Source of the DNA: Cyathus striatus
Taxonomy: Eukaryota; Basidiomycota; Agaricomycetes; Agaricales; Nidulariaceae
Direction: 5' to 3'
NCBI GenBank assembly: GCA_025738555.1
Contig: JAOVFP010000010.1
Coordinates: 1,860,001-1,924,000, forward strand
Length of the DNA stretch: 64,000 nucleotides
Positions within the stretch are counted from its first letter, which is position 1; each line of letters starts with the position of its first letter. Below the pieces are notes generated by a model. It saw nothing but the letters and a program-made list of their open reading frames with translations. It was not told the origin of the DNA and searched no databases. A program made the position numbers and the translations under genes. Shown one piece after another: positions 17,112 to 62,728 of this stretch.

Positions 17112-19416
17112 ATGTCATTCAAAAATGTGCACAACATTGGAATTCAACGTGCTGAAATGAATGACATAAAAATTGATACCCAGGTAAATAATGGATTTTA
17201 GCAAATCACATTGTAAACATTTTTACTGACATTACCCAATTTTCAGAATATATACAATCAGCCAAAGGATGAAGCACTTTCTCCACTTCAGACCACTGCT
17301 GCTTGTACCTCTCAGAATTTTGTTGGTCAAGAGGTGTATCTGGAGAGACTTCATCAACATTTTGCAAGAGGAAATACTACTGAGAGAAAGAAGTTCCTTT
17401 TATATGGAATGGGTGGCATTGGAAAAACTCAAATTTATTTGAGGTTTATAGATGAGAAGGCTGGCCAGTAGGTATATCTTCAGTTATCTTAAGCACAAAA
17501 TAAAAAATATGAAACAGATATGTAAACACCTTTTGGATTGACACAACATCTGAGGATACAGTCATTCAAAGTCTCAAAGAAATATATAAGATGATATCAA
17601 CTTCAGGAACTTCAGTATCTTCATTGTCATCTGCAGTGGTTCTTAATTGGATTTCTAACCTTGAATCTGAATGGCTCTCCTGAACTAGTGGAAAAGTATA
17701 TCCCACCTGGAAACCTGGGGAATATTTTGATTACAAGCAGAAATTATACACTTAGCAGAATTACTTCACATGAAAATTCAATGGAAATATCTGAAATGAG
17801 TGAAGAAACATCCATTGAGCTGCTTTTTAAAGCAAGTGGAATTGCTAAGAATACAAAAGATCTGAATGAAGCAAAAATAGTAGTTCAAAAATTGCATTAC
17901 CTGCCATTGGCCATTGATATAGCTGGAGCTTATATAGCTCAATTAAATTATGAAATTAATGATTTCATTAAACTCTATGACAAGTTCAGACCTAAGATAC
18001 TGAATCATGACAAATTTAAGGGTGCATCAGGATATAACAGAACAGTGTATAAAACATGGGAGATTTCATTTCAAAAAATATTGGAATTTTCAGTTGACAG
18101 TGAAAATAAAGATAGAGCAGCTGCAGCACAATATGCAATAGCTCTTATAAATATCTGTGCATTTTTTTTATTGTGACAAGATATCAAAATCAATATTTGA
18201 AAGGGCTGCAATGTATTTTCCAATACACAAGAAGCATTATGAAGATATTGATTTACCTTCATATCTACCATCCATGGATGTGTCAATTTTCAATGTGAAT
18301 GAATGGCTGTTCATGGAAAGTTTTGAACTACTTCTTTCATTTTCATTAATAAACAAAACTAAGATAAAATCAGTGTATAATGTACATCCATTGGTACAGA
18401 CATATTGTCAAGACAGGTTATCAGTAACAGAAAAAGAAAAGTGGATACTAAATGCTAGATCAATATTAGTAAGCTCTATTTGTACTGAAGATACAACTGC
18501 AGAATATATCTATGTGAACAATCTCTTGCCACATGTTATACAAAATCTATGCCATGACAATGAGATAATTAATTCCAAGTATTACAATGATATTTTCAGC
18601 ATATTGGCAAACATACTAAAAAAATATGGTAAATATAATATAGAAGGAGCATATAGATTAATAGTTGCATTAAACTATTTGGAAAAGCTTCTGGGATATC
18701 ATGAAATTTTAACTGAAAGTTCAATTATGAATGAGGACATATGGTTGAATATAGGGACAAAGATCAACACAAATAATATTCACTTTAACAAGTTGGTACT
18801 CAGTGAACTTTATCATTTATCAATTACATATTGGAACCAGGGTAAAAAAACAAATAGTCAACTACTGGGAAACAAAGTTTTGAATATGAGAAAGCAAATT
18901 CTTGGCAATGACCATCCTGATACACTTTCAAGCATGGCCAGCCTTGCAGCTACATACAGTAACTTAGGTAAACATAAGAATGCTGAAAAGCTTGAGATTG
19001 AAGTTTTGGATATGAGAAGGCAAATTCTTGGCAATGACCATCCTGATACACTTTGGAGCATGGCTAACCTTGCAGCTATGTACAGTAACTTGGGTAAACA
19101 TAAGAATGCAGAAAAGCTTGAGATTGAAGTTTTGGATATGAGAAGGCAAATTCTTGGCAATGACCATCCTGATACACTTTCAAGCATGGCCACCCTTGCA
19201 ATTACATACAGTGATCTGGGTAAATATAAGAATGCTGAAAAGCTTGAGATTGAGGTTTTGGATATGAGAAGGCAAATTCTTGGCAATGACCATCCTGATA
19301 CACTTTTAAGCATGGACAATCTTGTAGATACATATAAGAATCTGGGTAAACATAAAGATTCAAAAAAGCTGGAAATTGAAGTTTTGAATATCAGAAAGCA
19401 AATTCATGGCACATAG
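17112..19416 (+). pseudogene. NB-ARC/TPR (NLR-like) gene, disrupted
   Basis: Paralogue of the gene at 32599. Exon 1 17112-17183 (MSFKNVHNIG...), exon 2 17247-17467 with the P-loop YGMGGIGKTQ, exon 3 17518-19416. Both introns have GT...AG ends. Compared with the intact copy, 26 bp are missing at 17671-17677, between two ATGGCTC repeats. This deletes the Walker B segment (IIYDNAD) and shifts the frame to a stop. A second shift is an 8-T run at 18162-18169 (one base more than needed). After it the frame is open to 19416. The C-terminus has a partial TPR and only 4 full 42-residue units (18898-19401). A cytosolic sensing or self/non-self recognition role is typical of the family; this copy should be non-functional. 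Confidence 0.85.
18898..19401 (+). repeat. Four 126-bp TPR-coding repeats
   Basis: Four tandem units coding ILGNDHPDTL... AEKLEIEVLDMRRQ, nearly identical in DNA, followed by a short IHGT tail. The intact paralogue has 26 units with NEHP instead of NDHP. Confidence 0.9.
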
Positions 19417-32598: not shown

Positions 32599-35500
32599 AT
32601 GTCATTTAAAAATGCGCACAACTTTGGAATTAAAAATGCTGAAATGAATGATATAAAAATTGATACCCAGATAAATAATGTAGTTTATCAAATTACATTG
32701 TAAACACTTTTCACTGATATTACTCAATTTTCAGAATATATACAATCAGCTGAAGAATGAAGAGCTTTCTCCGCTTCAGACCACTGCTGCTTGTACCTCT
32801 CAGAATTTTGTTGGGCAAGAGGTGTATCTGGAGAGACTTCATCAACATTTTGCAAGAGGAAATACCACTGAGAGAAAGATGTTCCTTCTATATGGAATGG
32901 GTGGAATTGGAAAAACTCAGATATGTTTGAAGTTTATAGATGAGAAAGCTGGCCAGTAGGTATTTCTTTAGATATATTAAGTACAAAATTAATAATATTA
33001 AACAGATATGTAAATACCTTTTGGATTGACACAACATCTGAGAATACTGTCATTCAAAGTCTTGAAGAAATATATAAGAAGATATCAATTTCAGGAACTT
33101 CAACATCTTCATTTTCTTCTGCAGTGGTTCTTAACTGGATATCTAATCTTGAATCTGAATGGCTCATAATCTATGACAATGCTGATGGCTCTCCTGAACT
33201 ACTTGAAAAGTATATTCCACCTGGAAACCTTGGGAATATATTGATTACAAGCAGGAATCCTACACATAGCAGAATTACTTCACATGAAAATTCAATGGAA
33301 GTATCTGAAATGAGTGAAGAAACAGCTATTGAGCTGCTTTTTAAAGCAAGTGGAATTGTAAAGAATACAAAAGACTTGAATGAAGCAAAAATGGTAGTTC
33401 AAAAATTGCATTTTCTGCCATTGGCTATTGATATGGCTGGAGCTTATATAGCTCAAGTACATTATGAAATTAATGATTTTATTAAACTCTATGACAAGTT
33501 CAGACCTAAAATATTGAATCATGACAAATTTAAAGGTGCATCAGGATATAACAGAACAGTATATAAATCATGGGAGATTTCATTTCAAAAAATATTAGAA
33601 TTTTCAAATGAAAATGGAAATAAAGATAGAGCAGCTACAGCACAATATGCAATGACCATTATAAATATCTGTGCATTTCTTCATTATGAGAAGATATCAA
33701 AATCAATATTTGAAAGAGCTGCAAAGTACTTTCCAATGCACAAGAAGTATTATGAAGATATTGATTTGCCATCATATCTACCATCCATGAATGTGTCAAT
33801 TTTAAATGTGAATGAATGTGGTGAATGGGATGAGTGGATGTTTACAGAAAGCATTGAATTGCTTCTTTCATTTTCATTAATAAATAAAACTAAGATAAAA
33901 TCAGTGTACAATGTACATCCACTGGTACAGACATATTGTCAAGATAGATTATCAGTGACAGAACAAAAATTGTGGATACTAAATGCTAGATCAATATTAG
34001 TGAGCTCTATCTGTATTGAGGATACAACTGCAGAATATATCTATATAAATAATCTCCTACCACATGTTATACAAAATTTATGTCATGATAATAAAGACAT
34101 TAGTTCCAAGTACTACAATGATATTTTCAGCATTTTAGCAAATATACTAAAAAAATGTGGTAAATATGATATGGAAGGGGTGTATAGATTAAGGGTTGTA
34201 TCAAAGTACTTGGAAAAGCTTCTGGGACATCATGAAACTTTTTCTGATAGCTTAATTATCAATGAAGACATGTGGCTAGATATAGGGCAAAAAATTAATA
34301 CAGATAATCTTAAATATAGCAAAATGGTACTCAGTGAACTTCATCACTTATCAATTACATATTTGAGGCAAGGTAAAAATAAAGAGGCAGAAAAACTAGA
34401 TTTTGGAGTTTTGAATATGAGGAAGCAAATTCTTGGCAATGAGCATCCTGATACACTTAAGAGCATGGCCAGTCTTGCAGTTATATACAAGAATCTGCAT
34501 AAAGATAAAGATGCAGAAAAGCTGGAACTTGAAGTTTTGGATTTGAGAAAGCAAATTCTTGGCAATGAGCATCCTGATACACTTCAGAGCATGACCAGTC
34601 TTGCAGTTACTTACAGTAATCTTGGTAAAAATAATGATGCTGAAAAGATGGAAATTGAAGTTTTGGATATGAAAAAGAAAATTCTTGGCAATGAGCATCC
34701 TGATACACTGTCAAGCATGGCCAATCTTGCATCTACATATGAGAATTTGGGTAAATATAAAGATGCTGAGCTGCTGGAAATTGAGGTTTTGGATTTGAGA
34801 AAGAAAATCCTTGGCAATGAGCATCCTGATACACTTATGAGCATGGCCAGTCTTGCTATTACATACAATAGTCTCAGTAAGCTTAAAGATGCAGAAAAGC
34901 TGGAAATTGAAGTTTTGGATATGAGAAAGAGAATTCTTGGTAATGAACATCCTAGTACACTTTGGAGTATGGCCAATCTTGCAGTTAATTACAGTGAACT
35001 TGGTAAATATAGAGATGCAGAAAAACTGGAAATTGAAGTAGTGGATATGAGGAAGCAAATTCTAGGCAATGAGCACCCTGATACACTTCAGAGCATGGTC
35101 AATCTTGCACTTACATATGAGAATTTGGGTCAACATAAAGATGCAGAAAAACTGGAACTTGAAGTTTTCAATATGAGAAAGAAAACTCTAGGCAATGAGC
35201 ACCCAGATACACTTCAGAGCATGGTCAATCTTGCAGTTACATATGAGAATTTGGGTCAACATAAAGATGCAGAAAAACTGGAACTTGAAGTTTTCAATAT
35301 GAGAAAGAAAACTCTAGGCAATGAGCACTCAGATACACTTCGGAGCATGGTCAATCTTGCATGTACATATGAGAATTTGGGTCAATATAAAGATGTAGAA
35401 AAACTGGAGTTTGAAGTTTTCAATATGAAAAAGAAAACTCTAGGCAATGAGCACCCAGATACACTTCAGAGCATGGTCAATCTTGCATTTACATATAAGA

Positions 35501-37719
35501 ATTTGGGTCAATATAAAGATGTAGAAAAACTGGAGTTTGAAGTTCTCAATATGAGAAAGAAAACTCTAGGCAGTGAGCACCCTGATACACTTCAGAGCAT
35601 GGCCAACCTTGCAGTTACATACAAAAATCTGGGTCAACATAAAGATGCAGAAAAGCTGGAAATTGAAGTTTTGGATATGAGAAAGCAAATTCTTGGCAAT
35701 GAGCACCCTGATACACTTCAGAGCATAGCCAATCTTACAGTGACATACAAAAATTTGGGTCAACATAAAGATGCAGAGAAACTAGAAACTGAAATTTTGA
35801 ATATGAGAAAGAAAACTCTTGGCAATGAGCATTCCTCCACACTTTGGAGCATGGCCAATCTTGCACTTATATACAGAGATCTGAATAAAAATAAGGATGC
35901 TGAACAGCTAGAAATTGAAGTTTTGAATATGAGAAAGCAAGTGCTTGGCAAGGAGCATCCCTCTACACTTTGGAGCATGACCAATCTTGCAGTTACATAC
36001 AAGAATCTGGGTAAACATAAAGATGCTGAGCAGTTAGAAATTGAAGTATTGGGTTTGAAAAAGCAAATACTTGGCAATGGGCATCCTGATACACTTAAAA
36101 GCATGGCCAGTCTTGCAGTTACATACAAGAATCTGGGTAAAAACAAAGATGCAGAAAAGCTGGAAATTGAAATTTTGGATTTGAGAAAGCAAATTCTTGG
36201 CAATGAGCATCCTGATACACTTAAGAGCATGACTAGTCTTGCAGTTACATACTGGAATCTTGGTAAAAAAGATGATGCAGAAAAGCTAGAAATTGAAGTT
36301 TTCGACATGAGAAAGCAGATTCTTGGAAAGGAGCATCCTGATACAATTTGGAGCATGGCCAATCTTGCAGTGACATATAAGAGACTGGGTAAAAATAAAG
36401 ATGCAGAAAAGCTGGAAATTGAAGTGGTGGATATGAGAAAGAAAATTCTTGGCAATGAGCATCCCTTCACACTTTGGAGCATGTCCAATCTTGCTCTTAC
36501 ATACAAGAACCTTGGTAAATATAAAGATGCTGAACAACTGGAAATTGAAGTTTTGAATATGAGAAAGCAAATTCTTGGCAATGAACATCCTGGTACACTT
36601 AGGAGCATGGCTAGCCTTGCAGCTACTTACAGGAATCTGGGTAAACATATGGATGCTGAGAAGTTGGAAATTGAAGTGGTGAATATGAGAAAGCAAATAC
36701 TTGGCAATGAGCATCCTGATACACTTGGGAGCATGGCCAACCTTGCAATTATATACAAGAATCTGGGTAAAAACAAAGATGCAGAAAAGCTAGAAATTGA
36801 AGTAGTGGATATGAGAAAGCAAATTCTTGGCAATGAGCATCCTGATACACTTAAGAGCATGTCCAATCTTGCTCTTACATACAAGAACCTTGGCAAATAT
36901 AAAGATGCTGAACAGCTGGAAATTGAAGTTTTGGATATGAGAAAGCAAATTCTTGGCAATAAACATCCTGGTACACTTTGGACAATGACTAGTCTTGCAG
37001 TCACATACAGGAGTCTGGGTAAACATAAGAATGCTGAGAAGTTGGAAATTGAAGTGGTGGATATGAGAAAGCAAATTCTTGGCAATGAGCATCCCGATAC
37101 ACTTGGGAGCATGGCCAGTCTTGCAATTACATACAAGAATCTGGGTAAAAATAAAGATGCAGAAAAGCTGGAAACAGAAGTTTTGGATTTGAGTAAGCAG
37201 ATCCATGGCAATGAACATCCTGCTACACTTTGGACCATGAGTAGCCTTGCAGTTACATACAAGAATCTGGGTAAACATAAGGATGCTGAGAAGTTGGAAA
37301 TTGAAGTGGTGGACTTGAAAAAGAAAATTCTTGGCAATGAGCATTCTGATACACTTAAAAGCATAGCTGGTCTTGCAATTACATACAAGAATCTGGGGAA
37401 ATATAAAGATGCAGAAAAGCTGGAACTTGAAATTTTGGATTTGAGAAAGCAAATTCTTGGCAATAAACACCCTAGTACACTTAGGAGCATGGCCAGTCTT
37501 GCTATTACATACAAGAATCTGTGCAAACATAAGGATGCAGAAAAGTTGGAAACTGAGGTTTTGAATTCGAAAAAGCAAATACTTGGCAATGAGCATCCTG
37601 ATACACTTAAGAGTATGGCCTGTCTTGCAGCTACATACAGGAATCTAGGTAAAAATAAAGATGCAGAAAAGCTGGAAATTGAAATTTTGGATTTGAGAAA
37701 GAAAATTTGTGGCACATAG
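32599..37719 (+). CDS. NB-ARC/TPR (NLR-like) protein with 26 TPR units
   Basis: Three exons: 32599-32679, 32735-32955 and 33006-37719, giving about 1671 residues. An NB-ARC NTPase follows a short MSFKNAHNFG N-terminus: Walker A YGMGGIGKTQ, Walker B WLIIYDNAD and the GNILITSRN sensor strand. A helical ARC-like region runs to about 34370. Then come a partial TPR and 26 full 42-residue kinesin-light-chain-type repeats ending ICGT. Such proteins are fungal NLR-like receptors, probably cytosolic, with TPRs as ligand surface and NB-ARC as nucleotide switch. No effector domain is visible. The usual intron-1 donor (GTAAAT in the paralogue) is ATAAAT here; GTAGTT 9 bp downstream at 32680 keeps the frame. 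The ATG was chosen by conservation with 17112. CpG is nearly absent from the body. Confidence 0.88.
34429..37704 (+). repeat. 26 tandem 126-bp TPR-coding units
   Basis: Exactly 26 units of 126 bp, consensus ILGNEHPDTLKSMANLAVTY followed by KNLGKHKDAEKLEIEVLDMR. Units 6-11 share NLGQ. Units 17-19 and 20-22 form a duplicated three-unit block. Regular length and near identity point to recent unequal exchange or conversion. Long antisense frames across this array are by-products of the periodicity. Confidence 0.95.
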
Positions 37720-40830: not shown

Positions 40831-41847
40831 GTCATTCTTATCAATCTACACATATACTGATACACATGTACAAAAATACAATGTACCCAATTTTAAAATC
40901 TTCTTTATGTCTTGATTTCAAGATGCCAGTACCAAACATGTTGAGCAAAGGAAACAGTGGGGAGGGGCTGAGTTCCTGTGCTGCCTCCCATAATTCATCC
41001 AGGAATTAAAACATTATAATACTATTAAAAACATATACTCTGCATTAGTACTGGTTCAAAACCACTTAAACAAATAAATACATAAAGACTTTACCTTATA
41101 AAACAACATTGCATTTTGTACAACAAGTACCTGAAACTAGAACTAGCATCTGACATGTGATAAAAGTCAGCACAAGATGCACAGAAGGGATACAGACAAT
41201 ACACAGACTTACACCAATATCTCCTAAGCACTTCAAATCCTAATAAACACATAAAAAAAGTTTATAAAAAAGAAAAATATTTAAAAAAGTATAAAAATCA
41301 AAAATTACCTATAAAATAATAATAGCTATACACTACTATTGTTTAATTATTTTGTGTTAGTTAGTATTCTTTTATTTAAATTTAGTGTTAAATATTTAGT
41401 TTTAATTAAAAATTGTTAATTATTTAGTAAGTATTGTAAATGTAAATTATAAATTGTAATCGATTTTTTATTATTTTTTATTTTTTAAGAGGTATCTTAT
41501 CTCATTGTTTATTTTAGGCTTGCTTAATAGTATTTTGTATTGAAATTTGTATATGTGTGTGGAAAGCTTAGTATAGAGTGAAATAAATTTAAATTTAAGA
41601 ACTTCAGATTTTTAAGGCATTTGTGTTTAAGTTAGTTAAAGTAGTCTATTGTGTATTAGAACATCCTCTTATTTAGATAATGCAAAGGGATTCTTCCCAC
41701 TTTTGCTTAAGAAAAGATTGTTTACCAATTTCAACAGTACCCCAATGGTCAGGAGTTCACACAGAAGCAGGGAACTGATCCATTAGGCTAAAGTAAATGA
41801 AATTGATGTGAGCAGCTGGCACTGCCGCATTGGCTGATTACCCAATT
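40831..41847. other. AT-rich sequence between gag break and TIR element
   Basis: No gene. 41230-41480 is very AT-rich. It is foreign to the DIRS gag, which resumes at 49975, but lies outside the recognisable TIRs. It may belong to a larger or second inserted element. Confidence 0.4.
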
Positions 41848-42337
41848 TATGGAAAGCCAGACAACCACACTCAACTAGATCAAAGCAGTTGAACTCCGAC
41901 ATTCGGCAAAATGGCAGTCGCTTAGATATGTTCTTAGGCGCATCTTGTTCAGCCAAAATTTCGGTTAACCACTTAGTCCAAGCTTCAAGTCCTACTGTAT
42001 TCGGATGCAAATGTAAGACTTGGTATTACAATAGAGTACTATAGCATGTGTCATTACCAATTATTTTGTACATTCACTTAAGTTCAATAGATACAATTGA
42101 GAAATAAGATGTTAAAAAAGTGTCTATGTTGTATAAATCTAGCTTTGAGATGAGACTCGTAACCTGAAAAAGCATACAGAGTGCAGTAGCATATATCTAC
42201 TGCTATTGTTCTAATGAGTTGTTGGAATAGGGTTGATCATGTCTGCAAGAATAGTCCACTGAATTTGTGTGTAATAGCTTGATGCGCACAGCAGGAGTTG
42301 AACTCGAGATCGAATACGTGGGAATTTATCACGTGAC
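41848..42337 (+). repeat. Left 490-bp TIR
   Basis: From TATGGAAAGCCAGACAACC to TTATCACGTGAC, the reverse complement of 48639-49128 with scattered mismatches. It contains GGAGTTGAACTCGAGATC, a tRNA B-box-like word. Confidence 0.85.
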
Positions 42338-42623
42338 ATAAAAGTCACGAGCATCGTTTCCTCCATGGAAATGACGCTCGTGACCTTTATAACAATTAAT
42401 TTTTCACCAAGTACCATCTCCATTAATATTATCATTCAGTAATGCATTGTTTAGAAATTGCACAATTCACTGAAGGTACTATAGATTGTTTCAAACATAG
42501 TAGTAGATAATTGACCTATTTATGGAGTGATTCTAATCAAAGTACCTACAAGCTCATATAAAAAGGTCATACAGATCCTTAACACAACTCCAAATTTGTA
42601 ACAGCATGCAAGACACTAGATTT

Positions 42624-45511
42624 TTATGCTGTATTGAGAGTTGTTAAGTTAAACCATTCACAGTAATTGTTGCAAATATGCTCAGATGCAAAATTATTGA
42701 ATGCAGAACCCACATTCCCCTGGCCAAACAGGGCAGCATCATCTTCAAGTGATCTTAATTGAAATGTTACTCTATCTCTTTGAGTAGCTGAAAAATAAAC
42801 TCATGGTGCGGTCATTATTTGTGGGTCAGATAAAAGTGTGGCACTCCCTGTATTATAAAAAATTATATAAGAACACTCAAAATAAAATGGTAAAACTGCA
42901 CACCTTGTAGATCTGATACATATACCAAGGAATCAGTTTTTTCATACTGAATATGCTGCATGAAACAGAGAAATTCTGCGATGGCATAAAGTGGATCACT
43001 TCCATCTAGAAGAGGACAAGCAGAACCATTGTGAATGAATTTTATGAAGTCATTTCCTTCATTCTCAATGAACTCTTCTAGCAAGTAGACATTGTGCATT
43101 GTTGCTGACTTTCCACCAGGCTTACTACCAGCAGTGTCATGAACAATGCCAACACCAGCCTTCACAAAGCATATCTCAGGGATTTTGAAAGGAGGCTCTC
43201 CTTTGGTTGATATCACCTGTGAGATGTATGAATATGAATAAGACAGTAGAGATGCTGCCCAGTAGGTAACATTGGCCTTGACTAGTGTCTTTGTCAGCTC
43301 TGAATCAATTGCAAACCGTCCAATTGATAGTCCTGTCTGAGAAGAGCTACTTCTTGTACTTTTTCTATCATCCCGAAAGTAAACTCGCTTTACAGCAACA
43401 GGCTGGTTTAATGTATCTCCAAGGCCAGATTCCGCTATTGGAGTGAGTGTAAGGAGCCCTTTATGTGCAGTTTTACAAGCTCCAATACCAATAGACTCAA
43501 GATGATTGATGGTTAGTGTACCAGGACATGGGTCCATTAAAGAGAAAGACTATTTGGTATTTTCAGCAAGAAGCTCTGCCAGACCGATCTCAGGAATTGT
43601 ATAAAACTGGATTTGCTCCACTCTGTATTTTGCTTATATGAGTGTTAGTGATTTTGTATGCATAGTTATTATGTGAATAAACTGCTTACCAGAATTAGCT
43701 TGTATATTAGCTGATAGTCCACCAACTTTTAATGCTTCACGGATCTTAAGTCTATCTGGAGATTTATATGGAATTGAAGTGTGTATACGCTTCTTTAATG
43801 GAGCAGATGTTGGTGATAACTCCAAGGAGCTTAGTGTATTCTAGGAATAAGTTTAGATGTGCTGCTGCATACATAATTAATGAGTATACATACTGTACGA
43901 GTTCGTTTCTTTGAATCAAATGACTTCTTTGGTGTCGTAATAGCTGCAGTGCTGCCATTCAAGCTAGTTGAATGACTGGTTTTTGCATTGTTCAGAGTAC
44001 TACCAGAGTCTACATTGACCATGGAATCAAATTGGTCAGATATACCAAAATCATTGGACTCATTTTGCAACTAGGAAATGCATGTCAGCATCAATAGAAC
44101 TTGTCTATACAAATAGACATACTTTAACATCCTAAATAAAAGCAATATAAGATTAGCTTGAATATAAACAAACTAGTAGTGCTTCCTACCTCCTGAGCAG
44201 CGACATAGTCCAAGCTTTCTTCCCACAAATATGCTGGAACAACAAGCCCTAATATAAATGGCTTTGAAGGTATCTTGAATACATTCTTCTTGTCTTTGCC
44301 TCGTCCTTGTCCAAGACAGCGATTATAGAAATATGGCTGGTCTTGTTGCATGCGTGCAAGATCTGTCCAATTACAAAGCTCACGAATGGTAAGTGACTTG
44401 GTTTGAAATGGAAACCAATGCATTGCCTTCCGAAGTTGAGGTAGCATTGTATCCTCTACCAATTTGATTAAGTCCCGAGGTGTAATCATGGATGGGATAT
44501 TCTGGTGGCCTTCTTGTAGATTCTACTCAAAGTATATTAGCAATAGTGTTCACAGTAAAATATAATTTAGTTACAAACCAAAATCAACTCAGGCCTAGTT
44601 TTACCAGAAATCTCATGGACTGCCTGAACTATAATACTAATTGTTTCAAATTGGCGTCCCTGGTAACTAAATTGCTGGTACTTGTCCCGCTCTGTCTTAT
44701 AGAGTGAATGTGAACCAGAGTACCCTGAGGAAGTAATTTGTTGAGACACTGCATAGCTTCCACCATTTGCTGACCATGAACTTGGTATTCCCACAGCTGG
44801 CAGTTGACGAGTAGAATCAGGTGTATGTGACCATCGCTGCAGTACTGCTGAGGGAAGGCTATTTGGAAGATGTGTAACCTTTCGTGCAAGGAAACTGGAA
44901 TCTAAACAAAATATCAAAAAACATCACAGTTAAAATATTTAATTACATACCTTTTCTTTGAGCCTGGTTTACAGAAGCTCTGATAGACTGTACATCAACA
45001 GTACTGGATCATGAAGCCACTGAATTCTGTTCAGAAATTTCAGAACTGAGCTGATCTGCAATTGCAGGGCCTAAACATCAAGTATATTAGTATATTATTG
45101 TTAAATTAAAATATAAAAGACATACTTATGATAGAGTCTGTGGGTAGTTGTCGATTTGTACTGGATAAGCGACTTGCAACATCAGGCCCTATCTGGTGTG
45201 AGAAAATTTTCATCATATACTAATAATAATTCAGACTTACTCAGAAGTGTATCTGGTTTCTTTACATAATATTCAAAGCACCCATCACAAACAAATTTAC
45301 CGCGAGTACCACCTGCAATATAGTGCTTGCTGTCACCAGGCTGGAGAATGATTGAGCAGCTACTTCTACCACATGGGATGGGTTCACTTGCATGTGTATC
45401 TTCAGTGAATTTAGCAATAGCTTCGGCATTACCAAAGTTCATGTTGATAGCAATGAAAGAGTGAAAGTGGTGGGATAAAAGGTGCTGCTGAGAAGATACG
45501 ATGAATTTCAC
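42624..45511 (-). CDS. Alpha-kinase domain protein (transposon cargo)
   Basis: Atypical Ser/Thr kinase of the MHCK/EF2K type. Minus-strand order: N-terminal Cys-rich segment (CGRSSC... GKFVCDGCFEYY, 45380-45260), a middle region with several short introns, then the kinase. Visible are a Gly-rich start IGIGACKTAHKGLL (about 43480), VAVKR lysine strand (about 43400), the EEFIENEGNDFIKFIHNG linker (about 43060), YVSDLQG (about 42920), LLSDPQIMTAP (about 42830), and the zinc-binding GQGNVGSAF... SEHICNNYC (42730-42660) before TAA at 42624. Key residues for zinc and nucleotide binding appear present. An in-frame TGA after MTAP and one between the penultimate exons could be introns or damage. Divergent from the DDE gene with a shared upstream region. 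Biological substrate unknown. Confidence 0.7.
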
Positions 45512-45607
45512 AAGGTATTTATATTTTTAGTGAGATCATGTCTTGTATCATAAGTCAGATATTCTGAAATCATGACAATTCACAAATACCTCATGTGTGA
45601 TGTCGCA

Positions 45608-46105
45608 TGGTAAGATATTAAATAAACAAACATAAATTTTACCCAGTGCATATGTTTTGAATGATCATGAAGTGGAATATAGATAGTATAGTGGAAGGCA
45701 ATGCAACAAATATTAAAAGGATTTGACCGATTTTTATGTCATTTGCCATACTAAGACTCTCAAGAGCCGAGAATGATCAACTCTGATTACTCTTATTCAA
45801 TATAATTACAAGCAAGCAGTTACTTGACCATAATATAATGTGCTTGATGTTGAGCACGGTAAGATGTTAAATAACCCAAACGTAAATTTTGCTCATTGTG
45901 TATATTTTGAATGAGTGTGAAGCGAAATAAAAATAGTATAGTCGAAGGCAATGCAGCAAATATTAAGAGATTTTGACTGATTGTGATGTCATTTGTGATA
46001 CTAAGACTCTCAAGAGCCAAGAATGATCAACTCCAATTACTTTGATTTAGTATAATTACCAGCTAGTGGTTACCTGAACATAATACAATGTGCTTGATAC
46101 TGACA
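45608..46105 (+). repeat. Tandem duplication, two ~249-bp units
   Basis: 45608-45857 and 45858-46105 share GGCAATGCARCAAATATTAA and ACTAAGACTCTCAAGAGCC. They lie in the intergenic region between the divergent kinase and transposase, so they may include regulatory sequence. No coding. Confidence 0.75.
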
Positions 46106-46591
46106 GGTTGGCCAGAGTAATTATCATGAAGTGCAATAAAAGACTCCTGGTAAGGCATGAGGAAACTAAAACAATGGCTAATATTAAATATTAATTACTT
46201 CCCATTGTGTGAGTATGAAATTGGAACTTGGTAGTAGGATCTTCGCTTATTAGACTGAGTAATCATTAAATTTGTAAAGATACAGACTGGTAAAGTGCTT
46301 ATGTTTTATGTAATGTGTAGCACATTTATTTTACGTAGATTTGCTATGCACAGCTGCCTTGCAAAGTATTTTTAGAGAAGATTGACAATATAAATACTTT
46401 GGGGTACAGTAAAAAATCGAATCAACTGTTTCTTCATTCACTCATGTGTATACACTACTTGCTGTCATTACCAACATCGAAATTATGGCTAGAACAGGAT
46501 GCAAAAATCAATATAATCCTAACCATAAGTTTGGATTCATGTGTACTTATTGTTTTACCATTGTTAATTTCTCTATGCCATAGCTCCTATT

Positions 46592-48426
46592 GATGACATC
46601 GCCCCACACATACTTAGGTACTGGAAAATGTGTCTCACTGATAAGAACATACTTCATTACTTGAGGATGAAGCACATGGATAATACTCGTTATGGATTAG
46701 GGTAAGTTGTGTAACTTTGTGTTCACTATTATTCACATTAGATATCAAGCTTACACTTATTAAATGAATAGTTTGACCAGGCTTATTGAAATGCATGAGA
46801 AAATGGGGCTTTTTCGAACTCGGAAGCAAAATCATGATGTTGAGAGCATCCGGCCAGCAATGATTCGCTTATGAACTCAGTATCCAAAAGCTGGTGCTTG
46901 TGAGATGGTGAGTTTGCTATTTCATGAGGAGAACATGGCAGTCTCTAGGTCTGTTTATGTTATTGATGTCAAATTTTTCATTCACTTACTATTATGAATT
47001 TCAGGTGAATTGTTACATCATACTTTGCTCTCTATGAGCCTGAGCTTGTTCAGCAGTGGCATGCACAAAGGCTGCGTCGAAAGAGGTGGTGGGCTGCTGG
47101 TGTGAATGATATAATTGCAGTGGATCAGCACGACAAGTGGAAATACAAATTTGGTCTGGGTTTACATACTGGCATCGACCCATTTGCTGGAAAGATTCAT
47201 TGGTTGAAGGTTTGGCATACTAATAGTAACCCTAAACTTATTCTTGCATATTATCTTGAAACTATTGAGAATCTTGGTGGTAAGCCTTTTAAAATTTTGT
47301 TCAGATTGGCCATTATTAATAAATATATGTAGCAATGCCTCTGGTTACTCAGAGTGACCCTGGCTCCGAAAATTTTGGACTTGCCAATGGACATACATTT
47401 CTTCGTCACCTTCATGATCCTGCACTTCAGAGAACACTTCAACACCGCTGGATGCGATCAAAGAAGAATGTTAAACCTGAGATAACATGGTCACAGCTTC
47501 GTCGAAGGTTCACTCCTGGATTTGAAGATATCCTTGACAGGGGCATTAATGAAGACTTGTATCACCCAGACCATACTATTGAAGCATTCGTAATTTTCTA
47601 TAATATAAAATATATTTATTCTTACAAGTTATCACAATAGCATGGTATTCCGATGGGTATTTATTCCTTGGCTACAGGGCGAGCTTGATGGCTACAAAGA
47701 CCGGGTTAACAATACAGCAAAGCGTGCTGATCGTAACAAAGTGCTTCCTCATGGTATACCTAATGACATTTTTGAAAATCCAAATGAATATGGTGTCTTA
47801 GATTTCAAGGTGAGTTATCATTTTTATAAATGATTTCTTATGCTAACAGTATGCAAGATACCAGTCAATATGGAGGCTATTCAGGAAGCACGTGCATTGT
47901 TTTCACCACCTAATGATCCTGTATTCCAGCTAGTACCAGAAACATTTTCTAATCTGGCTCAGGACATATATTCACAGCATGGTTCACCAGTTATTACTAG
48001 GAACAATGTCTGGGATATCTACTTGTTAATCCTTAATGATATTCAGTCAGGAATTGACATTCCACCTGGCATTCAGGATATCTGGACTGAAATTATTAGG
48101 ACTTCACTATGTGATCATCATGATACCATGGATTTATTACCTGGCCTTTCAGAGTTAGAAGGAGGGATTGAAAATGCTACAGCAGAGGGATTGTATTACA
48201 TGGGTGGTGTGAACAATGGGAGGGGAATAGGTAAATGAAAGTATTCAATATATATACTTCACTTTCTGACAAATTGCTGTGTCCAGATGAATCTCATTCA
48301 GCACAGCTTGATGCTATGATGAATGCAGACCATCCAGTTATTTATGAGGAGCATGAATTTCCAGAAATTGAAGTTAATTTCACTTCAGATGAGGATGACT
48401 CAATCAACGGAGATGGTACTTGGTGA
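46592..48426 (+). pseudogene. DDE integrase-like transposase, family 2
   Basis: About seven exons with short GT...AG introns: 46592-46701, 46772-46948, 47005-47279, 47333-47589, 47641-47809, 47850-48231 and 48285-48426. The N-terminal part (APIDDIAPHILRYWKMCLTD) looks helical and DNA-binding. Catalytic residues: Asp in DIIAVDQHDKWK (about 47120), Asp in TQSDPGSENFG (about 47350), Glu in PWLQGELDGYKDRVN (about 47690). The C-terminus is acidic and ends with TGA at 48424. In-frame TGAs at 46872 and 47006 fall at likely Arg codons, so this copy is probably inactive though the catalytic core is whole. It belongs to a different clade from the 14.2-15.8 kb gene. The flanking 490-bp TIRs are its presumed substrates. 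Confidence 0.75.
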
Positions 48427-48638
48427 AAAATTAATTGATATGCTGGTTATATGTACTTGCAGATACTTCAATTAGAATAGCTCTGTAGATAGGTATTATT
48501 ACCACTTGAAACAATCTACAGTACATCTATTGAAATATGCAATCTCTAAATGAACATAAACAATGATGTATTTATAATATGAATGAAAATCAATGTGCCA
48601 GTGTTGTAAGAAATGCACCTGGCTCAACACTTGAGTAA

Positions 48639-49128
48639 GTCACGTGATAAATTCCCATGCATTTGATCTCGAGTTCAACTCCTGCTGTGCGCATCAAGCT
48701 ATTACACACAAATTCAGTGGACTATTCTTGCAGACATGATCAACCCTATTCCAACAACTCATTAGAACAATAGCAGTAGATATATGCTACTGCACTCTGT
48801 ATGCTTTTTCAGGTTACGAGTCTCATCTCAAAGCTAGATTTATACAACATAGACACTTTTTTAACATCTTATTTCTCAATTGTATCTATTGAACTTAAGT
48901 GAATGTACAAAATAATTGGTAACGACACATGCTATAGTACTCTATTGTAATACCAAGTCTTACATTTGCATCCGAATACAGTAGGACTTGAAGCTTGGAC
49001 TAAGTGGTTAACCGAAATTTTGGCCGAACAAGATGCGCCTAAGAACATATCTAAGCAACTGCCATTTTGCCAAATGTCGGAGTTCAACTGCTTTGATCTA
49101 GTTGAGCGTGGTTGTCCGGCTTTCCATA
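48639..49128 (-). repeat. Right 490-bp TIR
   Basis: Starts GTCACGTGATAAATTCCC and ends GGCTTTCCATA. Reverse complement of 41848-42337. CpG differences include TTGAGCGTGG here versus TTGAGTGTGG on the other arm. Confidence 0.85.
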
Positions 49129-49974
49129 CCGATTAGGAAGGAAACTGATGGGATGCTCAAACAAGTGTGCACTGCAGAATGGGAGCATGTTGGGCTATGT
49201 GCATGATTGACTGACCACCATCTGGGTGCTGACACAGTGGTTGCTTATACATGGCCAGTGAAATGTCTGGAAAATATATCACATTTTATTACTGTACAAT
49301 TTGTAATTAAGTACATAGAAAACTGTATATAGTAGGGGAAGAGGGAAGAAATAAGGCAGGAACTGCCAGGCATTCTTCCCTCCTGCAGATAGGGTGTGTA
49401 CAGATGAGAATCAGACATATTTATGAGACATTTAGACATTGAGAAATATGTACAGAGTTTATTGTTTGAATTGATATCTGAACACTTTGAAATCTGAATA
49501 CCTTGATGCATACCAAAAATAGCCCAAGTTTAACTTGTCTATTTTTACACTTGTTCTAAAATTGGAATAGAATCGATTGCGCCCCTCAAACTAACTGAAC
49601 TTACACCACGGGATTTGAATATTATTATTGTATTTGGAGTTTCTATTCTAAGTACATAAGAATTACTTAAAACTTGTTGCATGACTCAACAACACAACAT
49701 ACATTGTATATCACACCAACATGCAATGCAAAAACAGCACTATGCCAATGTGGATATAGCACTATGTCAATGCAGATACAACTCTATGCCAACTCAAATA
49801 TGGGCTATACCAACATGGATATAACTCAATACCAATGCAAACATGGTGATAATACTACACACCAATACATACATGGTTATGCAGCCACTTGAACAAAACA
49901 TGGTATAAATCACCATGGCAAATGTGATGAAATGACTTATGTTATAATAAAACACACCACACTAACACAGCACC
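49129..49974. other. No gene; decayed short repeats
   Basis: 49640-49900 has irregular units around TATGCCAATGTGGATATAAC. 49140-49260 gives a stop-containing frame I do not recognise. It is foreign to the DIRS gag and lies outside the TIR. Confidence 0.4.
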
Positions 49975-53030: not shown

Positions 53031-53247
53031 GACCCAGAAGCCAGGGATTGGCCTAGATGGACCTCTCTACAGAAACAAAGCAAGAATAAAAAGACAGGAA
53101 AGGGAGAAGAGAAGAGGGATGGACAATGGTGAGATGAGATGTGGGCAGTCAAGCATACAGCACCAGAATGAAAGAGCTCAACAAGGGGCAGCAGAAAGGA
53201 AGGGGGGAAGAATTGGAAGGAGTGAATTGTCAGAGTGCTAGGATCAC

Positions 53248-54380
53248 ATGAAAAGAAGGCAATGCCCAATGCCATACCTAGCTCTTCTAACACTGATATC
53301 ATCCCCTTTTAGACTGCAATGTTTAGTGAAAGAGAGAATGGTGAGGTGGAGGCCAATATGGACAAGGCTCAATATGGAGACTAGCTTGGCAGAGGAAGAC
53401 TTGAAGAGAGTGGCCACACATACAGCATATGCTAGTGGTTTGTTGTCATTTCATGTCTTCTGTGATAAGAGAGAAATTGTGGAAGAAGACAGAGCCCTGG
53501 TGAAGCAAGAAGTGTTGGTGGTCTTCATAGCCCATATGGCCAATGTATATTCTGGGAAAACAATCTGTAATTATGTCCAAGGCATCAAAGCCTGGCATAT
53601 CCTACATGGGGTAAAATATGAGGTTAACCAATCAGAGATTGACAGCCTACTCACCAGGGCAGATAAATTGATGCCAGCCACTTCCAAGAGAAGTAAACAA
53701 GAGCTGTTCACAGTAGGATACATCACAGACTTGAAGAGGGGCTTGAATTTGGATAACCCATTGGATGCAGCAGTGTACACATGCTTAACAACATGCTTTT
53801 ACACAATGGTGATATTGGGGGGATTTACAGTAGATCAGATTTCAGTTGTGTTTGACTCACAATGGCACATAACACCACACCATTTGTCAAAAATGCATGA
53901 CCATGAGGGGAGAGAGGTGATGAACTCAAGAATACCCAGAACCAAGGTAGCACCTGATAGTGAAGACATGTTCTGGACATGACAAAACAGCCCTACAGAT
54001 CCCAAGGTGGCATTAGAGCACTACATGCAGCTGAACAAATCACCACAAGATGGACATTTGTTCATGTACACAGACAAGAGTGGAAGGTACAGAGCACTCA
54101 CCAGAACCACCTTTCTCAAATGGATTGGGGAAGTAGCCAAGGCAACAGGGAAGAAGCCCATGCAAGGTCATGGCATCTGTATAGGCTCCATGCTGGAATA
54201 TTTGCTGAGAGGAATGCTGTTCAAAGCCATGAAGTCAAAAGGGCACTAGTCAAGCAACTCCTTCCAACTGTACTTGCAAAAACACATGCAAGTGGCAGCC
54301 CCATACATCCAAGCAGTGTGAGAGATCCGCTCAGAATTTGTTGGATACCCTGTGGTGACAGATGTATGAGGTGATAGGCA
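53248..54380 (+). pseudogene. Tyrosine recombinase of DIRS-like element
   Basis: Open to a TGA at 53980 (likely CGA), continuing in frame to about 54246 and, after another TGA-like break, to about 54370. An N-terminal core-binding helical region (about 53390-53620; AYASGLLSFHVFCDKREI, NYVQGIKAWHILHG) is followed by the catalytic domain. The C-terminal HxxR box reads HGICIG (54169-54186) with Cys where the catalytic Arg belongs, codon TGT at 54178. A downstream LYLQKH near 54270 offers the nucleophile Tyr. Loss of the Arg should inactivate DNA strand exchange. Confidence 0.78.
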
Positions 54381-58233: not shown

Positions 58234-59565
58234 AGTAACTAGTGGAGTAGTTTACTTTGAGTGAAGTATAAGAGTATAACTAGGGATAGGTAAACATGGA
58301 GTCAGCCACCATAGGGGAGTAGTGGCTGAAGAATGGAAGGAAAGGCTATATGCAATATAGTGAAATGGATAGGAGTAGTAATAGAGGAGTAATACAAAAT
58401 AATGACATAGTGAATGAGCATGAGTAAGTAATTGATAAATCATGATGACATATCTGACGATTGGTCAGAAATGCGGCCAATGCAGAAGTGCAGGAAGTGT
58501 AGGAATGTGAGGGGTGTTAGCCATTTGGATCATAAAAAGCCCAGGTTTTATGAAAAAGTGATCACAAAATCCCTGACTTCCATGATCACTGCAAAAATCT
58601 AATGGTATTCATTATTATTAATGAATGTATGAGTGATCAAAGGTGATCATTGGATGTTATAATAGTGTATGATGGATATTAAAGGGCATATTGACTACTA
58701 ATGAATACTAATGAATGTGAAAGTGATCGTAAGTGATCATGATATGATATAATGGTGTATTATAGTGCATGATGACTACTGGTGAATACTAATAGATATG
58801 TAAGTGATCATAAGTGATCATGGTATGTTGTAATAGCATATTATAGTGCATAATGACTACTGGTGAATACTAATAGATGTGTAAGTGATCATAAGTGATC
58901 ATGGTATAGTATAATGGTGTATTATAGTGTGTAATGACTACTAGCTAATACTAATGAATGTGGAAGTGATCATATGTGATCATGATATGTTATAATAGTG
59001 TTTTATAGTGCATAATAACTACTGGCAAATACTAATGAATGTAGAAGTGATCATAAGTGATCATGGTATGTTATAATAGCATATTATTGTGTGTAATGCC
59101 TACTAGTTAATACTAATAAATGTAAAAGTGATCATAAGTAATCATTGTATAAATAATAGCATATTAATTTATAAATGAATATAGGAATATCACATTTTCC
59201 CACATGTCACGCATGTCACGCTCGTCACATTCGTCACATATGTCACGAGTGTTACGAATGTCACGCTCCACATATTTGTCACATATGTCATGTATGTCAT
59301 GTATGTAGCATTTGTCATACTTGTCACACTTGTTGTGTATGTCACACCTGTCACACCTGTCACGTATGTCATGTATGTTGCATTTGTCATACTTGTCACA
59401 CATGTCACACCTGTCGTATTTGTCACACTTGTTGTGTATGTCACACATGTCACACCTGTCGTATTTGTCACGTATGTCACGTATGTCACACATGTTATGC
59501 ATGTCACATTCGTCACACTTATGTACGTCACATATGTCACATTTATTATGCATGTCACACATCTC
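58234..59565 (+). repeat. Left arm of palindrome
   Basis: Contains the GTGATCAT-type units (58600-59150) and the TGTCAC-type array (59200-59565). Starts AGTAACTAGTGGAGTAG. Confidence 0.85.
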
Positions 59566-60709
59566 ATATATGTCACATTTGTCATGCATATCACATTCTT
59601 ACATATCATACTTGTCAGATTCATCACACTTGTCATACATATCACATTTATCTTACATGTCACACTCGTCACACATTTTACTACTGGTTATATATATCAC
59701 ACTTATTACTCTCATCTGTCACAAATGTCATGCTTTTCATCATCTGTCACCCTTTTTCTGTCTGTTATACCTGTCACACTCTTCAAGCATCATTCATATA
59801 ACACTTCTCATATTTTACACATTTGTCACATTCTTTACATATTTGTCACATTTTCCATGTCTGTTATATCTGTCATATATTTTCTCTCATTTTGTTACAC
59901 TTTTCTTACATGTCACATTTTTCAGTTATATTACACATTATACTTCTATAAATATTACATACATTACTAATTGAAGATTCTATTTCATTCCCCTACTTCA
60001 AACCTGTTTTGATGAACACATCTTTAGTGTACCAATCTTAAGTATTAAAATAGAAACATATGACTTGCTATAATATATCTGAATACAAAGAACTGCATTG
60101 TACACAGCATACAAGTTGAAGTCAATGATCCTTATGTTTCTGATCTTTGTCAAAGCTCACATCAGTATTTAGACATTCATACAGTTACATGTGTAATAAT
60201 TGTCTCAAGAATCTCATGTCAAATATGACATATATGACACTATGCCATCTGCAATCAGTTTGAAATTGTCAAGGTTGATAGCCTTTACTGAGTTATGGGA
60301 ATTATACATTTTAAGCACTCACATGATTGTTACATTTAACTACTTGTTTTATTTAAGTCTCAGATGAGAGTAAGCTGAGAGTCAGTTGAGACATCTGTGA
60401 GAATGATACATACAACAGCTAGTTATGTAGCAGTTCTTGCTTATGAATAGATAAGTACTAGTAGGACATGAAAACAGTATCATATTGACATCAAGACTTG
60501 AGACATTAGAAAGTTATAAGTTTTAACAATAACATGGAACCATAGTAGAATGAGTGACATGAATAAAACAACACAATTGGACTAAACATGAAGTGAGACA
60601 AAGAGATAAAAGATGTGATAGTGGGAAGGTAGTATACAGTTAGTACTATGTGATATATGAGAAAAGATGTGATGGATGTGATGAATAGGGAAAGTGTGAA
60701 ATGTGCAAC

Positions 60710-60966
60710 TTGTCAGGAAAGTTGCAACAGGTGGCAGGAAAGGTACAATGTTAGATATTCTGGGTTGTACAGCCTCTGTTTCAGGCTTTGGTAGGACTTT
60801 GGTTGATAACTCTAGTATATAAACCCCCTGTAATTTGATAGTTGACCACAAGTTTCCTCCTATTTGTATTTGTGTCTGTGTCTGTGTCTGTGTCTGAGCT
60901 TTTCATCTCTTATCACCCCCCTCTCTCCCAACCTACCCCCCTTTATTATTTGTTGCTTCAGACAAC
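60710..60966 (+). other. Possible LTR end with primer binding site
   Basis: In the palindrome centre, TATATAAACCCCC at about 60820 is followed by a T/C-rich stretch, CAGACAACA and then ATTGGTGGCAGAAATGGTG, which looks like an LTR terminus followed by an initiator-tRNA-type primer site. No matching second LTR or coding region was found, so this is tentative. Confidence 0.35.
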
Positions 60967-61432
60967 AATTGGTGGCAGAAATGGTGTGATGGGTACCAGG
61001 AAAAGAAAAAGCATGGCATGTGGTAATATAGGGGGACATATGTGACAAGTGGTAAAATTTGTGACAGATGTAATCTGTATGGCAAGTAAATTTATTTGTG
61101 GGATCAATATGCTAACAATGATATGTGGGAAAGGTGTAAATGTAAAGCATAACAAGTGTGATATGGGTGCAAGTGTAACATACAGGAAAGGAATGGCAAA
61201 TACAGAAAATGTGACATTTGTAACATATAGGGAAGGTGAAACATATGTGACAAGTAGTAAAATAAGTGACATAAGTGATGAGTGACAGGTGTGACGAATC
61301 TGACAAGCGTGACACATATAAAAAGTGTGACAAGTGTGACAAATGCTACATATATGACATATACAACAGGTGTGACAAATATGAGGAGTGTGACATTCGT
61401 GCTGTGACACATGTGACAAATGTGACATACAT

Positions 61433-62728
61433 GAGATGTGTGACATGCATAATAAATGTGACATATGTGACGTACATAAGTGTGACGAATGTGACATGCA
61501 TAACATGTGTGACATGTGTGACATACACAACAAGTGTGACAAATACGACAGGTGTGACATGTGTGACAAGTATGACAAATGCAACATACATGACATACGT
61601 GACAGGTGTGACAGGTGTGACATACACAACAAGTGTGACAAGTATGACAAATGCTACATACATGACATACATGACATATGTGACAAATATGTGGAGCGTG
61701 ACATTCGTAACACTCGTGACATATGTGACGAATGTGACGAGCGTGACATGCGTGACATGTGGGAAAATGTGATATTCCTATATTCATTTATAAATTAATA
61801 TGCTATTATTTATACAATGATTACTTATGATCACTTTTACATTTATTAGTATTAACTAGTAGGCATTACACACAATAATATGCTATTATAACATACCATG
61901 ATCACTTATGATCACTTCTACATTCATTAGTATTTGCCAGTAGTTATTATGCACTATAAAACACTATTATAACATATCATGATCACATATGATCACTTCC
62001 ACATTCATTAGTATTAGCTAGTAGTCATTACACACTATAATACACCATTATACTATACCATGATCACTTATGATCACTTACACATCTATTAGTATTCACC
62101 AGTAGTCATTATGCACTATAATATGCTATTACAACATACCATGATCACTTATGATCACTTACATATCTATTAGTATTCACCAGTAGTCATCATGCACTAT
62201 AATACACCATTATATCATATCATGATCACTTACGATCACTTTCACATTCATTAGTATTCATTAGTAGTCAATATGCCCTTTAATATCCATCATACACTAT
62301 TATAACATCCAATGATCACCTTTGATCACTCATACATTCATTAATAATAATGAATACCATTAGATTTTTGCAGTGATCATGGAAGTCAGGGATTTTGTGA
62401 TCACTTTTTCATAAAACCTGGGCTTTTTATGATCCAAATGGCTAACACCCCTCACATTCCTACACTTCCTGCACTTCTGCATTGGCCGCATTTCTGACCA
62501 ATCGTCAGATATGTCATCATGATTTATCAATTACTTACTCATGCTCATTCACTATGTCATTATTTTGTATTACTCCTCTATTACTACTCCTATCCATTTC
62601 ACTATATTGCATATAGCCTTTCCTTCCATTCTTCAGCCACTACTCCCCTATGGTGGCTGACTCCATGTTTACCTATCCCTAGTTATACTCTTATACTTCA
62701 CTCAAAGTAAACTACTCCACTAGTTACT
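61433..62728 (-). repeat. Right arm of palindrome
   Basis: Reverse complement of the left arm, ending CTACTCCACTAGTTACT. The two arms are nearly identical, which suggests recent formation or gene conversion. Confidence 0.85.

Follow-up and report, generated by a model that had tools for sequence, protein, structure and literature searches.

The stretch of DNA analyzed here (the window) comprises 64,000 nucleotides from the basidiomycete Cyathus striatus (contig JAOVFP010000010.1, positions 1,860,001 to 1,924,000). It corresponds to C10:1860001-1924000 in the genome that we searched, which amounts to 107.45 Mb on 24 contigs (designated C1, C2, and so on). At positions 41848-49128, the window carries an element of about 7.3 kb in which two inverted arms enclose two divergently transcribed genes, one for an alpha-kinase on the minus strand and one for a DDE transposase on the plus strand. 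We regard it as highly probable that this element is a DNA transposon of the IS3EU superfamily whose own kinase and transposase genes point away from each other between long terminal inverted repeats (TIRs), and that the kinase is an ancestral working part of it. Gene models were built on another copy of the element, L032 (C18:999878-1007205), and were then projected on the other copies, including that of the window. The features of the window copy are the following.

41842..41847, no strand: left target-site duplication CCAATT, equal in 5/6 positions to the right copy CCGATT
41848..42384, plus strand: left terminal inverted repeat, 537 nt (length as in other copies), begins TATGGAAAGCC
42344..42384, no strand: imperfect palindrome GTCACGAGC...GCTCGTGAC that closes the left repeat on its inner side, read directly from the letters
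42624..45442, minus strand: alpha-kinase gene, 10 exons, 740 aa (projected L032 model)
42904..43632, minus strand: kinase exon 8, from the lysine motif VAVKRVYF to DLQ, with the G of DLQG supplied by exon 9 (projected L032 model)
45443..46484, no strand: intergenic stretch separating both gene starts (gap between the projected models)
45605-45848 and 45854-46098, plus strand: two direct repeats of about 245 bp, about 83% alike, also found in other long copies
46485..48426, plus strand: DDE transposase gene, 8 exons, 514 aa, PF24764 rva_4 (projected L032 model)
48403..48550, plus strand: 3' end and flank of the transposase gene, with an inverted repeat of it at 42389-42494 (two blocks, 92% and 82%)
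48636..49128, minus strand: right terminal inverted repeat, 493 nt, ends GGCTTTCCATA
49129..49134, no strand: right target-site duplication CCGATT

The arms that pair with each other (41848-42340 and 48636-49128) are 493 nt long each and 98% complementary, in agreement with the inverted repeats of about 490 bp around two divergent genes that had been described in the initial annotation. The full arm measures 537 nt in other copies; 44 nt of it are gone from the right arm in the window, and the counterpart of the palindrome at 42344-42384 is missing from this right repeat. The match between 48403-48550 and 42389-42494 represents an inverted duplication of older date, located within the terminal repeats. 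The stretch separating both gene starts (45443-46484) probably serves as a shared divergent promoter.

All introns of the L032 kinase model are of the GT-AG type. The 740-aa protein matches PF02816 with an E-value of 2.3e-14 (54.4 bits; gathering score 21.3), and a sequence search of the PDB aligned its C-lobe only with the kinase domain of TRPM7 (1ia9; E 2.7e-7). The histidine before DLQG, the DLQG motif, a second DP, and the HxCNxxC motif are aligned with 1ia9; we take these residues to comprise the catalytic Asp, the second Asp, and the zinc ligands. Where covered, the catalytic and zinc residues are conserved. By its profile score and its conserved residues, the protein is a predicted kinase. 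It has the DLQG..DP, GxGN, and HxCNxxC motifs in common with PF02816 alpha-kinases such as TRPM7, myosin heavy chain kinase A, and eEF2 kinase, and differs from alpha-kinases generally in being transposon-borne and in that the protein outside of the alpha-kinase domain matches no Pfam family. Its N-terminus carries PCGRSSC..CDGC (CxxxxC..CxxC), possibly a zinc site.

The L032 transposase model likewise contains GT-AG introns throughout, and its 514-aa product matches PF24764 (rva_4, 'Integrase core domain') with an E-value of 4.1e-10 (40.1 bits; cut-off 26). Residues D152, D212, and E253 form its putative acidic triad. Comparison with viral contigs yielded three pattern matches, none of them a relative, and a PDB sequence search returned only photosystem chains (E 0.19 or worse). 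The phase of the intron separating exons 5 and 6 was set by the relatives L052 and L053. We considered this junction as a defect common to all copies and rejected that reading; the intron is of the GT-AG type, and some copies, including that of the window, have lost its GT.

When referred to the L032 exons, the window kinase contains stop codons at 45011-45009 and 43552-43550, the window transposase contains stop codons at 46872-46874 and 47006-47008, and each gene has lost two splice donors. The initial annotation had reported a near-complete kinase next to a transposase with all three acidic residues; the motifs it named are present, but the window copy is not intact.

To follow the element through the genome, we searched with its arm and obtained 133 candidates, of which 40 were scored; all 40 match. 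Thirty-six of these matches can be arranged in 18 inverted pairs with spans of 2.9-16 kb, and the other four are single. Twenty copy regions (L031-L050, window copy included) were taken for comparison with the window element. Both genes are present, whole or partial, in 16 of them, the window copy included, while four short derivatives (L045, L047, L049, and L050) are without the transposase and have kept a piece of the kinase. In their main blocks, the long copies share about 95-99% identity with the element of the window. True termini were found at both ends in 17 of the 20 regions; L035 extends past the compared stretch, L040 is truncated on the right, and L048 is truncated on both sides. 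Each of the 17 two-terminus copies begins with TATGGAAAGCC and ends with GCTTTCCATA, so that TATGG..CCATA is found in all, and 12 of them are flanked by perfect 6-bp direct duplications; the duplication of the window copy agrees in 5/6 bp (CCAATT/CCGATT).

When the flanks of the window element were joined via one hexamer, they matched a dispersed repeat (190 candidates, 40 scored). Thirty-eight of the 40 scored matches cross the junction uninterrupted at 79-87% identity; the remaining two correspond to the flanks in the window themselves. Given these 38 uninterrupted relatives of the target, the boundaries of the element are real insertion points. The target repeat itself (window 41736-41847 and 49135-49269) is dispersed, about 250 bp long, and represented by at least 38 other copies at 79-87%; it could be a short interspersed nuclear element or a short derivative element.

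The terminal 20-mer has 169 exact occurrences in the genome (89 forward, 80 reverse), and its reversed control has none. We analyzed the positions of 100 of these 169 places, from C1 to part of C9; the statements on listed termini below refer to this set. Among them, 26 plus/minus neighbors pair within 20 kb, with 15 of the 26 under 5 kb, and short derivatives are common. Three of these derivatives, L047, L049, and L050, make up a non-autonomous subfamily with arms that are about 90% identical, a common internal deletion, and only the last kinase exons kept; perfect 6-bp duplications flank two of them. In L047 (C9:2518542-2521488), the flanks are mutually inverted complements (GTGCTTCAG and CTGAAGCAC).

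We then assessed how regularly the two genes occur together. A genome search with the kinase core gave 77 matches (79/79 candidates scored) that were merged into 68 loci, fragments included, and a search with the transposase core gave 90 matches (83/83 candidates scored) that were merged into 45 loci; the latter were built from 51 of the 90 matches, the other 39 being further exons at the same loci. A transposase lies within 12 kb at 37 of the 68 kinase loci, each time a different one, and every one of these 37 pairs is divergent, compared with about 0.7 pairs that chance placement would give. The near-identical family accounts for 16 of the pairs, and the other 21 are more diverged, with kinase and transposase identities ranging from about 88-92% down to 44% and 49%. 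The identities of kinase and transposase correlate with each other across 18 diverged loci (Spearman 0.71, p 0.0009; the 21 diverged loci minus three near-duplicates, with the best exon taken where several matched). Eight of the 45 transposase loci have no kinase within 12 kb. An even more remote transposase-like fragment at C6:4543852 (plus strand; 36% identity, E 7e-4; rva_4 below the cut-off, E 0.002) is divergent to a PF02816 kinase at C6:4539215 (minus strand). These data demonstrate a multi-copy unit with precise ends, 6-bp duplications, uninterrupted targets, and a linkage in one orientation that extends across diverged families.

The initial annotation had proposed a DNA transposon with an alpha-kinase inside the unit, and the 40 of 40 scored arm matches, the perfect duplications in 12 of 17 copies, and the divergence of 37 of 37 pairs bear this out. 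It had also suggested searching the same genome with the TIR; this search revealed a multi-copy element with both genes in 16 of the 20 compared copies and with uninterrupted targets. TIR copies lacking the kinase, which it had named as an observation that would speak against its proposal, were not seen among the compared copies, since even the four short ones keep a piece of this gene.

On C1-C9, the kinase loci that have no transposase within 12 kb amount to 15 places. Among the listed termini, an exact terminal 20-mer is found no more than 2.3 kb away at nine of the 15 places, and six places are without one. The terminus faces the kinase at seven of the nine places, which is the orientation expected if the kinase sits inside that element, and faces away at two. 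A genome search with PF02816 gave 35 matches (52/52 candidates scored); several of these loci, including the three best-scoring ones (C12:2361608, C19:2368027, and C19:2133684), are near none of the transposases found. Taken together, the partnered loci and the unlinked PF02816 loci indicate that transposition explains much, but not all, of the alpha-kinase content of this genome. The earlier suggestion that mobility lies behind the expansion of alpha-kinases is upheld to this extent, with 37 of 68 loci beside a transposase, and many alpha-kinase genes of this genome are probably transposon parts rather than host signaling genes.

To evaluate the constraint on both proteins, we compared L032 with L052, which is a diverged copy. 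For the kinase core (189 codons), the nonsynonymous divergence (dN) is 0.17 and the synonymous divergence (dS) is 0.85, hence a dN/dS of 0.20 (0.13-0.32, 300 bootstraps); dN/dS of the transposase core (176 codons) is 0.058 (0.029-0.106). In comparisons with L053 and L051, the synonymous sites were saturated in all but one, and that one was near saturation; a usable dN/dS was thus obtained from one copy pair only. In this one comparison, the kinase core is under purifying selection. Among the 16 long copies on which the models were projected, L032 alone is open in both genes with canonical splice sites and a perfect target-site duplication, whereas the other 15 carry lesions on the L032 model. 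CpG transitions exceed other transitions relative to L032 in 12 of these 15 copies, with one tie and two copies with fewer; the window copy differs from L032 by 52 CpG transitions, 18 other transitions, and 7 transversions. Such CpG-biased differences would fit a methylation-driven decay of the copies.

The termini (TATGG..CCATA), the 6-bp duplications, the rva_4 transposase, and the divergent alpha-kinase fit the IS3EU superfamily. According to the accessible parts of PMC12730594 (December 2025), the TET-carrying IS3EU families of rusts (Pucciniales) have 6-bp duplications, TIRs of more than 30 bp, and the ends TAYGG..CCRTA, and in all TET-carrying IS3EU families the TET gene is flanked by oppositely oriented transposase and alpha-kinase genes. 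The element described here has duplications of this size, termini of the TAYGG..CCRTA and TA..TA types, and TIRs of 493-537 nt, and it shares the divergent arrangement of transposase and alpha-kinase with the TET-carrying elements of Pucciniales and Tuber indicum (PMC12730594, same parts). It appears to differ from them in the middle, where those have a TET/JBP gene and ours has about 1 kb with a tandem repeat. No TET domain was found in the 7 of 12 open reading frames (ORFs) of the element that were run against Pfam; PF12851 had no match in the genome, and the control genomes were likewise silent.

The initial annotation knew of no described family with both genes, but the combination is already in print (PMC12730594), and our element is in all likelihood a new IS3EU member. 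The alpha-kinase is mentioned only twice in that paper and in passing, and its role is not discussed in the sections consulted. Beyond this paper, no publication linking an alpha-kinase with these transposons was among the matches listed in our literature search, which left subscription journals mostly outside. IS3EU/GingerRoot elements share TA..TA termini, usually 6-bp duplications, and an integrase-like transposase with the element, and the consulted parts of their description do not mention a kinase (PMC10045372). Styx of Zymoseptoria likewise combines an IS3EU-related DDD/E transposase with further coding sequences but has a 36-bp TIR, and no alpha-kinase is named in it in the consulted parts (PMC10853768). 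New here are how constantly the two genes occur as a divergent pair and, from one comparison, the purifying selection that acts on the kinase core; in the literature consulted, the kinase has been noted but not studied.

Several findings weigh against the reading of the element as an IS3EU transposon with a working kinase. Its membership in IS3EU is deduced from structure and the Pfam domain. L043 and L046 show no target duplication and L045 and L047 show only 4/6 bp, out of the 17 two-terminus copies. No transposase lies within 12 kb of 31 of the 68 kinase loci, many but not all of which are fragments. Ends could not be located for the diverged families; for the family at C10:2603924, no inverted repeat was detected in the 7.3 kb searched, and its homology to a near-identical copy on C16 continues beyond both sides. 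Constraint is weaker on the kinase than on the transposase, with a ratio that stems from one copy pair, and the openness of L032 is partly circular because the models were fitted to this copy. Finally, 15 of the 26 paired termini bound intervals of less than 5 kb, so that neither intact gene is needed in cis.

That short derivatives multiply without either intact gene, and that the constraint on the kinase is the weaker one, could also mean that an ancestor of the element acquired the kinase as passive cargo with no part in transposition. We consider this unlikely, since the kinase core shows purifying selection in the one usable comparison, its catalytic and zinc residues are conserved where covered, and a single orientation is kept in all 37 linked pairs although the families have diverged to 44% and 49% identity. 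Somewhat less probable still is a kinase retained for the benefit of the host, as a domesticated or host-useful signaling gene from which the element gains indirectly. The three best-scoring PF02816 loci, which are among those without a nearby transposase of the kinds searched, are in favor of such a gene; it is disfavored by the decay of near-identical kinases together with their elements (lesions in 15 of 16 long copies) and by unlinked kinases that sit just inside transposon ends (7 of the 15 places on C1-C9, among the listed termini).

Two structural alternatives were rejected. Polintons/Mavericks are distinguished by genes for a protein-primed DNA polymerase and a capsid. The long terminal repeats and the 6-bp duplications of our element would suit a small relative of this group, for which 6-bp duplications are given in the consulted parts of PMC10045372. 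Such an assignment is very improbable, however, for an element with two genes in 7.3 kb, with no polymerase or capsid match among the 7 ORFs searched against Pfam (of 12 listed in the element), with TATGG..CCATA termini as in IS3EU, and with a transposase that belongs to PF24764. A chance inverted duplication or an assembly artifact is hardly conceivable, since the same unit is found on many contigs with differing flanks and its own target duplications and since uninterrupted target copies exist; nothing was found in favor of it.

We therefore retain the IS3EU transposon with the kinase as most likely an ancestral working part, as the 37 of 37 divergent pairs and the purifying selection on the kinase core suggest. 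The DDE transposase would cut at TATGG..CCATA and insert with a 6-bp stagger in a cut-and-paste fashion. The window copy, broken in both genes, would have been mobilized either while it was still intact or in trans. Selection on the element would retain the alpha-kinase, whose likeliest task would be to phosphorylate either the transposase (affecting its activity, timing, or nuclear entry) or host chromatin and silencing proteins, so that the element is expressed and mobile. That the kinase acts on one or the other of these, taken together, seems to us about evenly balanced, and any choice between the two targets is a guess. A role in keeping the element expressible or the transposase active is favored by the presence of TET in the same unit in rusts and by the approximately 1 kb of shared upstream DNA. 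The demethylation-type enzyme (TET) in the published relatives suggests a tool kit against host silencing. A broader proposal, in which the kinase is an obligate co-factor of this IS3EU branch and most alpha-kinase expansions described for basidiomycetes consist of copies of this transposon-borne gene rather than host signaling genes, is tentative and in our estimate rather doubtful.

In the parts of the rust literature consulted, the alpha-kinase family is called highly expanded in rusts (PMC4469406), alpha-kinases are among the enriched domains tabulated for wheat rusts (PMC5295586), and for wheat stem rust a single alpha-kinase is listed with the genes that evolve rapidly and are up-regulated (PMC4150398). 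Should kinases of this kind be transposon genes, the alpha-kinase counts and the candidates from rusts need to be re-read as mobile DNA. Our data also raise the question why a cut-and-paste transposon has retained a protein kinase beside its transposase for so long.

Elsewhere in the window, a single open frame of 1591 aa (32944-37719, plus strand) contains 27 stretches of the 42-aa TPR_10 repeat. Compared by eye, the beginning of this frame is similar to the frame at 17595-18176 (weak NB-ARC match of 22.5 bits, just below the 23.5 cut-off), which is followed by TPRs at 18151-19416; this looks like an NLR-type family of fungal genes in which the TPR array is very long and homogenized. A 246-aa frame at 53242-53982 (plus strand) has no Pfam match; by eye it resembles tyrosine-recombinase-like proteins of fungal transposons, of which it is a candidate member. 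A retroelement reverse transcriptase with RNase H is located at 4213-5082 (plus strand), and two long low-complexity frames with CH-rich repeats lie on opposite strands at 59175-61787, in an apparent inverted duplication.

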